The position numbers were made by a program, and so were the translations under genes. A DNA stretch of 64,000 nucleotides, taken from assembly GCF_014202425.1 (NCBI RefSeq), contig NZ_JACHGT010000002.1, positions 566,164 through 630,163 on the forward strand, in the 5' to 3' direction. Of this stretch, positions 47,409 to 60,212 are shown one piece after another (within the stretch, counting starts at the first letter, position 1; each line of letters starts with the position of its first letter). This DNA is from Phytomonospora endophytica. Its GTDB lineage: Bacteria > Actinomycetota > Actinomycetes > Mycobacteriales > Micromonosporaceae. The notes under the pieces were generated by a model. It saw nothing but the letters and a program-made list of their open reading frames with translations, ran no database searches and was not told the DNA's origin.

Positions 47409-48956
47409 CTAGAAGGGCCAGGCGGCCCGCTTTCCCGCTTCCAGCAGCGGGATCATGCCGAAGGCGGCGTCGGAGAGGCCCCCGAAGGTGTGCCGGTTCG
47501 CCGTCGTCGGCCCGTGTCCGTGGCGGTATCCCGCGAGGTTCCAGGTGTAGACCGGGACCTCCGCCGGGACCGCACGCGTCGGGTCGCCGCCCGCCCCGCT
47601 CCACGCCTGCTCGTCGGTGACGATGACGACGCGGTCGTGGTGGTCGAACCAGCGGCGGACGGCCACGGCGGTGTCGGTCCCACCGAGGTTGCCGAAACGC
47701 TCGACCACGCGCAGCACCGAGTCGCCCTTGCGGAAACCGACGCTCTTCGAGGTCGTCCCGAACTCGACCAGGTCGGCCTTCTCCGCCCGCAGGGCCAGCG
47801 CCGTGCCGAACACGGCGGCCGTGTCGGCGAAGGTCAGGCCCGCGCGCCGCGAGTTCGCGAAGAACATCGAACCCGAGCGGTCGACCAGGACCAGCGTCCG
47901 TCCACTGAAGACCGGCACGTTGGCGAGGCTGTGCGACAGCGCCGTCTCCAGGGCCTGCGACCACCGCAGCGAACCCGTCGCCCGGTGGGCGGACAGGAAC
48001 CGCATCGGCAGCTGCTTCGAACGCGCCACGCGAACCGGATCGGCCAGTTCGGCGGCGACCCGCGCGGCGACGTCGTCGTCCACACCGGCCTCGTCCAGAC
48101 TCCTCAGGTTGCGAAGCCTGGCCATGAAACCCATGCCCGGCAGCACCGCGGTCCACGCCTCGGCGTCCATCGGGCCCTGCAACCAGCCCGCGAGCGCCTC
48201 CCACGTCATCCCGGCCGCCTTGAGACGCTCGGGATCGCGCAGGACGGCCCGGCGCCGGTTCACCGGCAGGGCCATCAGCTCCGCCCGCGAACGCAGCAAC
48301 GGCAAGGACCCGGGGATCGAGCCGGCGTTGCCGTGGCGGCGGTCGAGAGCGTGCGCGAACAGGGCGCCCTGAGCGTCCGAAGTGGACGACGGGTGGGTCA
48401 GGTCGAGGACGTCGGCGAAGCGGAAGCCCGCATTGGCACTGTCGTACTTGAGCAGCGCGTACTCGTCGTAGAGCCGCACGGCCGCGTCGGCGATCCCGCG
48501 CTTGACCGGCTTCGGGAGCGCGCGTCCGTACCGCGCGTTCCAGTAGGCCAGGGCCTCACCGGGCTCGTCGGCCCGGCGCAGCACACTCGACACGATCGAC
48601 CGCGAACCCGGGATCCCGGCGCGGACCATCCAGTACGCGGCCTCCAGCGCGCCCACGAGGGCGGCCGAACGCATGTTGGCGGTGGTGCGCAGCCAGACCA
48701 GGAAGCGGCCGAGCCAGTCGGGATCGCTCACGGCGAGCTTGCGGATCAGCTTGATGTAGCGCGAGTCCCGCGCGTCGGCGGACTCGTAGAAGGACTGCTC
48801 GCCGCAGAGGTTCGACACGGCGAGCAGGAACAGCTCGCCCTTCGGGTCGCGCTCGTAGCCGGGGGCGCCCTCGTGGGTGCGTCCCGTCGCGTGCGCGGCG
48901 CCCTTGATCGGTCCGGCGCCGGACGTCTTCTGCCGGGTCTTGTTGAACTTGGCCAT
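47409..48956 (-). CDS. rsr: Ro/Rsr ortholog: TROVE-domain RNA-binding protein
   Basis: 515 aa from the ATG at 48956 with AAAGGCGG upstream. The first 340 residues form the HEAT-like TROVE ring (ELFLLAVSNLCG, TTANMRSAALVGALEAAYWMV, ALPKPVKRGIADAAVRLYDEY). The C-terminal von Willebrand A domain has the MIDAS motif DRSGSM at residues 359-364 and later FGNLGGTDTAVAVR and VIVTDEQAW. Ro proteins bind the ends of misfolded RNAs in the central hole and Y RNAs on the outer ring; bacterial Rsr with YrlA RNA assists RNA decay and repair after stress. Two YrlA-like RNAs lie just upstream on the same strand, as expected for the family. Confidence 0.95.
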   Translation of the reverse strand: MAKFNKTRQKTSGAGPIKGAAHATGRTHEGAPGYERDPKGELFLLAVSNLCGEQSFYESADARDSRYIKLIRKLAVSDPDWLGRFLVWLRTTANMRSAALVGALEAAYWMVRAGIPGSRSIVSSVLRRADEPGEALAYWNARYGRALPKPVKRGIADAAVRLYDEYALLKYDSANAGFRFADVLDLTHPSSTSDAQGALFAHALDRRHGNAGSIPGSLPLLRSRAELMALPVNRRRAVLRDPERLKAAGMTWEALAGWLQGPMDAEAWTAVLPGMGFMARLRNLRSLDEAGVDDDVAARVAAELADPVRVARSKQLPMRFLSAHRATGSLRWSQALETALSHSLANVPVFSGRTLVLVDRSGSMFFANSRRAGLTFADTAAVFGTALALRAEKADLVEFGTTSKSVGFRKGDSVLRVVERFGNLGGTDTAVAVRRWFDHHDRVVIVTDEQAWSGAGGDPTRAVPAEVPVYTWNLAGYRHGHGPTTANRHTFGGLSDAAFGMIPLLEAGKRAAWPF

Positions 48957-49011
48957 GTCTCGTGCACCGCCTTTCATTGACAAAGTAGGAGAATTCGCCG
49001 CGGCGTACCGC

Positions 49012-49156
49012 GCCAAGGGTGTCCGAGATCGAAGTCGACGTGGGAAACGTGGATGTCCTGGGCCGCTAGACGACAGGGCCGGGTGGTGGCCCCGGCGGGA
49101 TTCGAACCCGCGTTTTCGACTTAAGAGGTCGAAGTAACCCATGTCTGCGCACCGGA
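49012..49156 (-). ncRNA. Second YrlA-like RNA, permuted tRNA mimic upstream of rsr
   Basis: Read on the minus strand it starts CCGGTGCGCAGACATGGG and shares GGTTACTTC with the first copy. In order: a hairpin TTCGAC-CTCTTAA-GTCGAA, a T-arm (stem GCGGG/CCCGC, loop TTCGAAT), a 7-bp acceptor-like stem CGGGGCC/GGCCCTG closed by ACCACCC, then a Glu-tRNA-like D-arm GTCTAGCGGCCCAGGAC. This T-before-D order is the circular permutation of YrlA RNAs. A joining stem ACATGGG/TCCACGT has one mismatch. The Ro-binding CGAA element of copy 1 is not preserved and the 3' boundary is uncertain. Confidence 0.7.
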
Positions 49157-49194
49157 CGCCCTTGGCTTGGGCACGCCCTCCCGAGTTCAAGGCC

Positions 49195-49325
49195 GGCGGC
49201 GGTGACCGCGGCGAACCGCGTTACATGCTCTACCTCTGAGCTACGTCCCCGAAGAGACGGCGGGATTCGAACCCGCGACACTGCAAACCAGAAGTAACCG
49301 CTGCCTTCGCACCGGGAGGTGCGTA
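49195..49325 (-). ncRNA. YrlA-type Y RNA (permuted tRNA mimic)
   Basis: On the minus strand a terminal helix CGGTG/CACCG holds an internal loop CGAA opposite GCGGT, then GGC/GCC. This matches the Ro-binding helix of Y RNAs. A joining stem GCG(G)TTAC/GTAACGC leads into a tRNA-like module: T-arm GCGGG-TTCGAAT-CCCGC, a 6-bp acceptor-like stem CGTCTC/GGGACG closed by a TTCG tetraloop, and a D-arm GCTC-AGAGGTA-GAGC. The tRNA parts come in permuted order, so it is not an ordinary tRNA gene. It has its own promoter and lies upstream of rsr, the known arrangement for Rsr and YrlA. Confidence 0.88.
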
Positions 49326-59376: not shown

Positions 59377-60026
59377 CGGGCGGCTCCGGCGGGCTTGTCG
59401 CCGGGGAGCGCGTCGAGGAAGTCGCGGGTGGCGGCGGCCGGGTCGGCGGCGCGGCTGATCGCGCCGACGACGGCGACACCGTGCGCACCGGCGGCGAGCA
59501 GCGCGGGGACCCGCCCGGGCGTGATCCCGCCGATGGCGACGACGGGGATGTCGACGGCCGCGGCGACCGACCGGATTCCCCACACCCCGAGCGGATCCGG
59601 CAGGCCGTCCTTTGTGGACGTCGGGTGTGCGGGTCCGACGCCGAGGTAGCTCGCGCCGGCGCGCTGTGCCGCGCGGGCCGCGTCGGGGTCCCGGCAGGTC
59701 CCGCCGAGGATCGCGGCGGGCCCGAGGACCCGGCGAGCGGCGTCGACGGGCAGGTCGTCGGCGCCGACATGGGCACCGTGCGCGCCGACCGCCAGCGCCA
59801 CGTGCAGCAGGTCGTTGACCAGGCAGGTCGCGTCATAGCGGGCGCAGAGCTCGGCGATGTGGAGGGCGAGATCGTAGGCGGCACGGTCGGTGTCGCGCTC
59901 GTTCGGGCGCACCTGGATCAACGGCGCGCCGGCGGCGAGAGCCGCGTGAACGGTGGCGACGGTGTCGACGCCCGGGGCGGTGTCGGTGATGACGTGCAGA
60001 CGCGGAAACGCGTGCGGAAACAGCAC
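59373..60026 (-). CDS. thiE: Thiamine phosphate synthase
   Basis: 217 aa TIM barrel joining hydroxymethylpyrimidine pyrophosphate and thiazole phosphate. LVNDLLHVALAVGAHGAHVGADDLP is the central signature, split by the motif N-D-L (usually N-D-R); the phosphate loop is HPTSTKDGLPDPLG and the second phosphate site AIGGITPGRVPALLAAGAHG. The N-terminal LR-E-K is altered to VRPNERD. GTG start. First gene after the TPP riboswitch. Confidence 0.93.
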   Translation of the reverse strand: MLFPHAFPRLHVITDTAPGVDTVATVHAALAAGAPLIQVRPNERDTDRAAYDLALHIAELCARYDATCLVNDLLHVALAVGAHGAHVGADDLPVDAARRVLGPAAILGGTCRDPDAARAAQRAGASYLGVGPAHPTSTKDGLPDPLGVWGIRSVAAAVDIPVVAIGGITPGRVPALLAAGAHGVAVVGAISRAADPAAATRDFLDALPGDKPAGAAR

Positions 60027-60036
60027 AGTAGGGCTC

Positions 60037-60121
60037 CTCCCTGCGCCGGCATGATCCGGATCAGGTTCGACGGTCTGGGGCTACGAAGCCCCACTCTCAG
60101 CCCGGTGCACCGGACTCCCGT
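60037..60121 (-). promoter_or_regulatory. TPP (THI-box) riboswitch
   Basis: On the minus strand: GGGAGTCCGGTGCACCGGG, then the invariant CTGAGAG, a P3a-type hairpin GTGGGGCTTCGTAGCCCCA, then ACCTGATCCGGATCATGCC and GGCGCAGGGAGG. These are the P2/P4/P5 elements of the thiamine pyrophosphate aptamer. It ends 10 bases before the thiE GTG; the final GGGAGG also resembles the ribosome-binding site, so binding of TPP would block initiation. Confidence 0.95.
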
Positions 60122-60212
60122 GGGTTACTTGCGGCCACCGTACGCCTTCGGGGCGTGCGGGGGCAAGGGGCGTTTCGTTGAGGGAAGTGAGGGCTGGGTC
60201 ACCCGGTGATGG

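Follow-up and report, generated by a model that had tools for sequence, protein, structure and literature searches.

A Ro protein gene and two predicted Y RNAs of unlike topology in Phytomonospora endophytica, possible Ro-tethered tRNA decoys

The locus considered here lies in a stretch of 64,000 nucleotides of the Phytomonospora endophytica genome (positions 566,164 to 630,163 of contig NZ_JACHGT010000002.1, GC content 72%; hereafter, the window), and comprises rsr, a gene encoding a bacterial Ro60 protein, together with two predicted Y RNAs, RNA1 and RNA2, found upstream on the same strand (Table 1). The predicted 515-residue product of rsr contains the Pfam TROVE domain (PF05731; E 4.6e-12, 46.3 bits, relative to a cut-off of 23). 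When an AlphaFold model of this protein (predicted local distance difference test [pLDDT] score of 86.3) was compared to Protein Data Bank (PDB) entries using Foldseek, 13 chains were matched at E ≤ 1e-3, with all 13 corresponding to Ro/TROVE proteins. Among the Ro structures matched are Deinococcus radiodurans Rsr (2nvo, E 6.9e-15), Ro60 of Thermus phage phiLo (9l5y_A, E 1.0e-16; 9kop, E 2.2e-18) and 1yvp (TM 0.78), although sequence identity in the alignments with 2nvo, 9l5y and 9kop is only 20-25%. As modeled, the product is Rsr with a HEAT-ring plus vWA fold. Residues D359, S361 and S363, together with T427 and D448, show no change across 18 aligned Rsr proteins and are read as the metal ion-dependent adhesion site. 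An earlier note on this sequence had described a TROVE/vWA gene preceded on its own strand by two RNAs, each with a T-arm, a closed acceptor-like stem and a D-arm, an arrangement confirmed by the Pfam and AlphaFold results and by the covariance model matches presented below.

RNA1 is predicted to adopt the classic layout of YrlA, the bacterial Y RNA represented by Rfam family RF02553, with the Ro helix standing where the anticodon loop would be. No anticodon arm is seen. Instead, UUGCA, found before the variable loop, pairs with UGUAA, found after the D-arm (five pairs, four of them Watson-Crick), such that an anticodon stem is present as two separated strands. RNA2, by contrast, is predicted to contain every arm of a tRNA, circularly permuted, with the Ro helix between the D-arm and the anticodon arm. 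Here, a hairpin of 6 bp with the loop CUCUUAA lies between the Ro helix and the T-arm and, judging by its position, corresponds to an anticodon loop, being seven nucleotides long and presenting U33, the anticodon CUU, A37 and A38. The arms accordingly follow the order anticodon-T-acceptor-D, rather than the acceptor-D-anticodon-T order of a tRNA. All seven pairs of the acceptor stem are formed, while the D-arm is one that we take to resemble that of tRNA-Glu. In RNA1 and RNA2 alike, the Ro helix has a loop with the 5' sequence GUGCG(A/C)A and the 3' sequence CUCGG. As such, the Ro helix assigned to the first RNA in the earlier note stands, yet its restriction to that RNA does not; moreover, the full anticodon arm of RNA2 and the difference in topology between the two RNAs had been missed.

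Table 1. Predicted features of the rsr locus and a riboswitch elsewhere in the window (positions are those of the window).
Feature	Position	Strand	Sequence, basis or remark
rsr, bacterial Ro60 (TROVE + vWA), 515 aa	47409..48956	-	Pfam TROVE; AlphaFold/Foldseek matches to Ro
RNA2, type A Y RNA, entire permuted cloverleaf and Ro helix	49013..49165	-	Model R1
RNA2 Ro helix, 5' strand	49138..49165	-	Closing stem CCAAGGGCGTCCG, loop GTGCGC, upper stem GACATGGG
RNA2 anticodon arm	49115..49133	-	TTCGAC-CTCTTAA-GTCGAA; anticodon CUU at 49123-49125
RNA2 T-arm	49095..49111	-	
RNA2 closed acceptor stem	49074..49094	-	CGGGGCC (49088-49094), ACCA (49084-49087), CCC, GGCCCTG (49074-49080)
RNA2 D-arm	49055..49071	-	
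RNA2 Ro helix, 3' strand	49013..49044	-	CCCACGTC ... ATCTCGGACACCCTTGG
RNA1, type B Y RNA, Ro helix in place of anticodon loop	49172..49321	-	Model R1; Rfam YrlA
RNA1 Ro helix, 5' strand	49301..49321	-	Closing stem CACCTCCCG, loop GTGCGAAGG; from sequence, motif recurs in relatives
RNA1 split anticodon stem, 3' strand	49282..49286	-	TTGCA; pairs with TGTAA (49221-49225)
RNA1 T-arm	49260..49276	-	
RNA1 closed acceptor-like stem	49244..49259	-	UUCG loop
RNA1 D-arm	49227..49242	-	
RNA1 Ro helix, 3' strand	49177..49196	-	CCGGCCTTGAACTCGGGAGG
TPP (thiamine pyrophosphate) riboswitch, ordinary	60021-60131	-	59.5 bits; cut-off 54.3

A covariance model (R1) was built on 20 relatives, with the window sequences being left out. 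When applied to the window, RNA2 (86.1 bits, E 1.1e-20) and RNA1 (65.2 bits, E 3e-15) were the top matches, with the next match scoring 11.9 bits (E 0.19). The Rfam YrlA model gave 49.7 bits for RNA1 and 17.8 bits for RNA2, both below the cut-off of 69, and the two were therefore not filed as RF02553 members; the same curated cut-off was reached at none of 20 loci tried. The Rfam tRNA model reached RNA2 at 29.9 bits (cut-off of 29), but in the non-permuted register, and ARAGORN detected no tRNA in the window.

Within the family, 87 of 300 genomes contain matches to the Rsr protein, and 16 loci were identified in named genomes (Nonomuraea, Thermomonospora, Streptomyces, Parafrankia, and others). 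In all, 104 loci were read; two duplicates (L039 and L075) and seven loci corresponding to duplicates from the P. endophytica genome itself or to matches to tRNAs or to RNAs linked to DUF7873 (see below) were dropped. With a Y RNA being recognized by a 5' Ro motif, a T-arm and a 3' motif, 118 distinct copies were identified at 77 loci, with the other 27 loci, some of which reflect cut contigs or broken genes, lying outside these counts. At least two Y RNAs were found at 38 of the 77 loci. Two diverged copies, considered unusual in the earlier note, are hence a regular occurrence, and two Y RNAs are likewise found in the published Salmonella rsr-yrlBA-rtcBA operon (PMC7790460).

A copy was classified as type A when it presented a hairpin with a 7-nucleotide loop, three closing Watson-Crick pairs and at least four of five pairs. 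This was the case for 59 of the 118 Y RNAs, including RNA2, with two doubtful entries (the first copy at L044 and that at L071) being retained. A split anticodon stem, as in RNA1 (type B), was found in 38 of 55 copies lacking the hairpin (2.6 expected), as compared to only two of the 58 type A copies scored (4.6 expected); five copies with no recognized D-arm were excluded. The other 21 non-A copies are either reduced or unclassified. By locus, the arrays read A (23), AB (17), BA (3, including the window), ABB (2), BoA (1), AA (2), B (7), and BB (2), with the rest containing unclassified copies. Both classes are thus found at 23 of the 77 loci, such that the pair in the window belongs to a common mixed arrangement. 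Reduced Y RNA-like copies, retaining the Ro motifs and the T-arm hairpin but with no clear D-arm or acceptor, were noted in the arrays at L010, L012, and L022 (in each case, the second copy), as well as at L061, L093, and L095.

To assess the anticodon arm, a fixed-position test was employed in which the conserved UUC/UCC preceding the arm sets the 5' strand and copies presenting all five pairs are counted as the loop size is varied from 3 to 12. With a loop of seven nucleotides, five of five pairs were formed in 47 of 109 copies, relative to 1.4 upon shuffling (27 of 55, with 0.9 expected, after clustering at 85%), whereas loop sizes of 3-6 and 8-12 each yielded 0-3 copies. Although the letters of the loop were not used in picking the 59 type A copies, U33 is found in 57, A38 in 55, and the pattern Y-U-NNN-R-A in 44. 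For covariation, a subset of 20 of these type A copies, all with a 5-nucleotide variable loop, was used, because MAFFT, when run on 47 type A copies, placed the variable loop wrongly; a mixed alignment of both types was also kept out of the counts. Over 36 pairs in these 20 relatives, 95.2% of the cells are paired, and both-sided changes are seen in 24 of the 36 pairs, versus 14.5 after shuffling and 9-10 after sliding. In the Ro helix, the lower stem is paired in 97.7% of the cells, with both-sided changes in six of nine pairs, while the values for the upper stem are 77.5% and five of six pairs. When the anticodon helix was considered alone, 14 cells showed both-sided changes, as compared to 4.1, with a covariation score of 0.502 versus 0.206. 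Across the 59 type A copies, pairs 31-39 and 30-40 present all four Watson-Crick forms, although pairing at these positions was a selection criterion. Since the 20 copies had been preselected for the hairpin, the fixed-position test offers the cleaner evidence. The stems, the loss of which in related genomes was named in the earlier note as a refutation, are kept with compensatory changes, and the note is not refuted on this point.

When the type A sequences were rearranged into tRNA order, ARAGORN called 54 of 59 as tRNAs. However, as tRNAs were also called in 454 of 590 sequences in which the anticodon arm had been shuffled and in 14 of 59 sequences in native order (20 of 590 upon shuffling the T-arm), this test was retained as weak support only. 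Judging by the pairing and loop statistics of the copies compared, the anticodon arm of type A Y RNAs is real.

The triplet presented by this arm varies, with 24 different anticodons being found in the 59 type A copies. A set of 19 orthologues sharing one D-arm motif (17 from one genus and two from another) was considered separately, with the similar copies at L029 and L054 not being included, given their loops of eight and six nucleotides, respectively. Across these 19 sequences, which present seven different anticodon loops, the three anticodon columns show entropies of 1.0, 1.56, and 1.11 bits, as compared to 0-0.3 bits for the seven bases flanking the anticodon on either side. In terms of sequence, the anticodon is thus the swappable part of a type A Y RNA.

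Ro proteins in phages are already known (PMC7824862, PMC9583779, and PMC13191466). Relatives of Rsr are encoded by 29 IMG/VR contigs, 22 of which contain an R1 match of at least 80 bits, four of the 22 being near-identical. In five of six phage loci annotated with PHROGs (30 proteins), rsr has terminase, head, tail, helicase, or endolysin genes in its vicinity. INPHARED contains 61 records with a relative of Rsr. Six named phages were examined, with rsr lying in or near an annotated tRNA cluster in GiJojo, BRock, Atuin, and Neville. A full-length R1 match (45.7 to 105.6 bits) precedes the Ro gene in five of the six, while in Atuin, such a match is found only behind it. Among the 48 full-length phage matches scoring at least 51 bits, 28 present a 7-nucleotide anticodon hairpin, spread over 23 of the 29 loci counted. 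U33 is found in 27 of these hairpins and A38 in 26, with 21 anticodons being represented. This count leaves out L226 (no match), L237 (28 bits), L243 (45.7 bits), full-length matches below 51 bits, and L229, L230, and L232, all near-identical to L228. At one phage locus (L235), the array presents four different loops. Examination of phage annotations further revealed that the tRNA-Arg(tct) assigned to Gordonia phage VanLee (L242:2204-2275), just upstream of Ro, lies inside a Y RNA match of 105.6 bits. Annotated tRNAs upstream of Ro in GiJojo (L239:2269-2343; 59.9 bits) and Frankenweenie (L243:2745-2835; 45.7 bits) likewise overlap Y RNA matches. On the basis of these overlaps, the annotated tRNAs upstream of Ro in all three phages are probably Y RNAs.

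In the P. endophytica genome, two further permuted tRNA-like sequences were noted downstream of a gene encoding a DUF7873 protein (G000:C1, around 665250-665600; positions 1300-1600, approximately, of L049; also L170). These RNAs present covarying stems and a basal helix like that of Y RNAs, with no TROVE gene nearby. DUF7873 was found in 29 of 61 genomes of the family searched (L152-L180). In 28 of the 29 loci, at least one T-arm motif occurs within 430 nucleotides downstream of the gene, while at the 29th (L158), the first such motif is found at 438 nucleotides. Two or more T-arm motifs were detected at 23 loci, with the first two being 143-154 nucleotides apart in 22; at L175, the second motif resembles an ordinary tRNA. 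With RNAalifold, both-sided changes were seen at 27 of the 33 pairs in the second RNA (based on 18 of 30 sequences) and at 11 of the 26 pairs in the first (based on 15 of 22). At the three loci tried, Rfam returned YrlA matches at the DUF7873 RNAs, all below threshold. A model of the DUF7873 protein (pLDDT 87.5) matched no PDB entry at E ≤ 1e-3, and the protein was not mentioned in the literature searched. Judging by their sequences, these RNAs appear to make up a permuted-tRNA family of their own, linked to a protein other than Rsr.

The P. endophytica genome contains a single TROVE gene, and no additional Rsr-type Y RNAs were seen among the stronger matches examined (R1, L116-L121; YrlA, L049-L052), which proved to be ordinary tRNA genes or DUF7873 RNAs, with the exception of a lone tRNA 3' half at L118 (G000:C8:228165-228313). 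The latter extends from the anticodon arm to the acceptor end, with no Ro helix and no adjoining 5' half, and is perhaps an integration-site remnant. Besides this genome, full-length R1 matches of at least 96 bits, accepted as Y RNAs, were found in six genomes of one family. A phylum-wide R1 count (327 of 396 genomes at E ≤ 1e-4) was discarded, given how tandem ordinary tRNAs match positions 32-109 of the model; three such matches that were examined (L131, L132, and L133; 62-67 bits) are all tandem tRNA-Asn pairs. At two bacterial loci (L061 and L070), arrays of ordinary tRNA genes immediately precede rsr and its type A Y RNA. As was stated in the earlier note, no rtcB adjoins rsr, nor is rtcB found anywhere in the window; the sole RtcB match in the genome (E 8.2e-125) lies on a different contig (C22, the window being on C2), while rtcA was not searched for. 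A scan of the locus for consensus promoters and terminators yielded nothing.

What would a Ro protein do with such RNAs? The reading preferred here, at a probability of roughly 45%, is that the locus provides Rsr and two Y RNAs of unlike topology that serve as Ro-tethered tRNA decoys. Rsr would hold RNA1 and RNA2 through their common Ro helix and would, upon binding, keep both stable. The tRNA-like body would engage tRNA-reading enzymes, with the anticodon arm of RNA2 occupying anticodon nucleases or similar enzymes that act on the anticodon loop, sparing real tRNAs, and with the anticodon triplet deciding which enzyme is engaged. This reading was chosen because the anticodons are varied and because phage copies often lie near tRNA clusters. 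The authors of an earlier study suggested that the tRNA-like domain of YrlA could be a competitive inhibitor of an anticodon nuclease (PMC7790460), and phage tRNAs have been linked to such nucleases (PMC10264068 and PMC11555353). With what appears to be a real anticodon loop, a type A Y RNA would be a better candidate for an inhibitor of this sort than is YrlA.

Several observations nonetheless weigh against a decoy role. Salmonella YrlA itself was not cut by the anticodon nuclease in the same study (PMC7790460). Type B copies with no anticodon arm share arrays with type A copies, such that, as predicted, the arm is not required for every Y RNA function, and no arm was found in 20 of the 48 phage matches. 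In VanLee and Frankenweenie, with one and three tRNA annotations, respectively, there is no tRNA cluster by rsr. In the anticodon helix, the number of pairs with both-sided changes, 2 versus 1.7 in shuffles, does not stand out, with 330 of 500 shuffles reaching 2. Finally, the acceptor-loop columns of the 19 orthologues are as variable as the anticodon (1.02-1.72 bits), such that relaxed constraint may suffice to explain anticodon variation, and no claim of diversifying selection is made.

The main rival to the decoy reading, and one that is plausible albeit not favored, holds that both Y RNAs act as an ordinary RYPER tether, joining Rsr to polynucleotide phosphorylase (PNPase) and gating its substrates, with the anticodon arm being a leftover kept for folding or modification. 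Such tethering and gating are established in D. radiodurans (PMC8394870 and PMC4726728), and the P. endophytica genome contains an 815-residue open frame with a KH domain, presumably PNPase, given its size. That type B copies do without an anticodon loop is also in line with a tether. Yet, a leftover should decay, whereas a 5-bp stem with an exact 7-nucleotide loop recurs in 47 of the 109 copies scored in the fixed-position test, with U33 and A38 maintained and with compensatory changes. The variable triplet could instead be that of a donor, were tRNA genes repeatedly captured, with the Y RNA arising at the junction of tandem tRNAs, i.e., the 3' half of one and the 5' half of the next, and with selection acting on the fold only. 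Indeed, two tandem tRNAs already form a permuted tRNA where they meet, making it possible that YrlA originated in this manner. The fit of tandem tRNA-Asn genes to positions 32-109 of the type A model and the tRNA arrays just upstream of L061 and L070 agree with capture, as does the ACCA that directly follows the 3' strand of the acceptor stem, inside the closed loop, in RNA2, in RNA2 of the nearest relative (L003) and in L094. Still, in the 19 highly similar orthologues, the anticodon varies while the flanks are nearly constant, such that new anticodons seem to come from point changes and not from capture. Capture, which explains origin and would fit any function, is thus an unlikely account of the varied anticodons. 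The same ACCA could also point to a permuted tRNA that is processed, in which RNase P and 3' maturation would open the acceptor loop to yield a two-piece or re-ligated tRNA that could be charged. The presence of rtcB in the genome and the ARAGORN calls on reordered sequences fit this scheme. However, ACCA occurs at this junction in only three of the 59 type A copies (when the position of the acceptor strand is taken from its own base pairs), the ARAGORN test is a weak one given its controls, and the Ro helix would stand between the D-arm and the anticodon arm, rendering such processing very improbable.

Permuted tRNA genes as such are familiar from red algae, where the 3' half lies ahead of the 5' half, as here, and where working tRNAs are generated upon processing. 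The closest known counterpart is YrlA (RF02553; Salmonella YrlA, PDB 6CU1, according to PMC8394870), which also lies by rsr and combines a Ro helix containing an internal loop with permuted T, acceptor, and D arms. The body of YrlA is modified by DusA and TruB, and the excerpts of the review describing this mention only D, T, and acceptor arms in YrlA (PMC8394870). Likewise, the Rfam YrlA model contains no anticodon arm, whereas RNA2 adds a complete one, with a 7-nucleotide loop, between the Ro helix and the T-arm. The Salmonella operon also combines Rsr with two Y RNAs but, unlike in the window, includes rtcB next to these genes; in the window, both RNAs are tRNA-like, yet differ in topology. 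The tRNAs of actinobacterial phages proposed to counter nucleases (PMC10264068) share with type A Y RNAs a tRNA shape and varied anticodon loops; these tRNAs and those of PMC11555353 are, however, ordinary, whereas type A RNAs combine a permuted order with a Ro helix. Among the literature matches listed, no title or abstract opening referred to a Y RNA with an anticodon arm, although Chen et al. (2014), Wang et al. (2018), and the reviews by Sim may mention one. As such, type A, with its anticodon arm, is apparently an undescribed form of Y RNA, with priority not being certain. Overall, the interpretation put forward in the earlier note is partly supported: the Ro protein and the two permuted-tRNA Y RNAs stand, whereas the two diverged copies regarded there as unusual are common.

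It is tempting, if rather doubtful at present, to extend the decoy reading to the proposal that Actinobacteria and their phages use Ro-tethered permuted tRNAs, with an anticodon that is freely swapped within an otherwise constant loop, as interchangeable decoys or sensors in an arms race against anticodon nucleases, with the DUF7873 RNAs representing a second version involving an unrelated protein. Regardless, with a class of Y RNAs predicted to present a real anticodon loop in which the anticodon can be exchanged, the idea that YrlA acts as an inhibitor becomes directly testable. In addition, some of the genes annotated as encoding tRNAs beside phage Ro may instead encode Y RNAs, which would affect counts of phage tRNAs.

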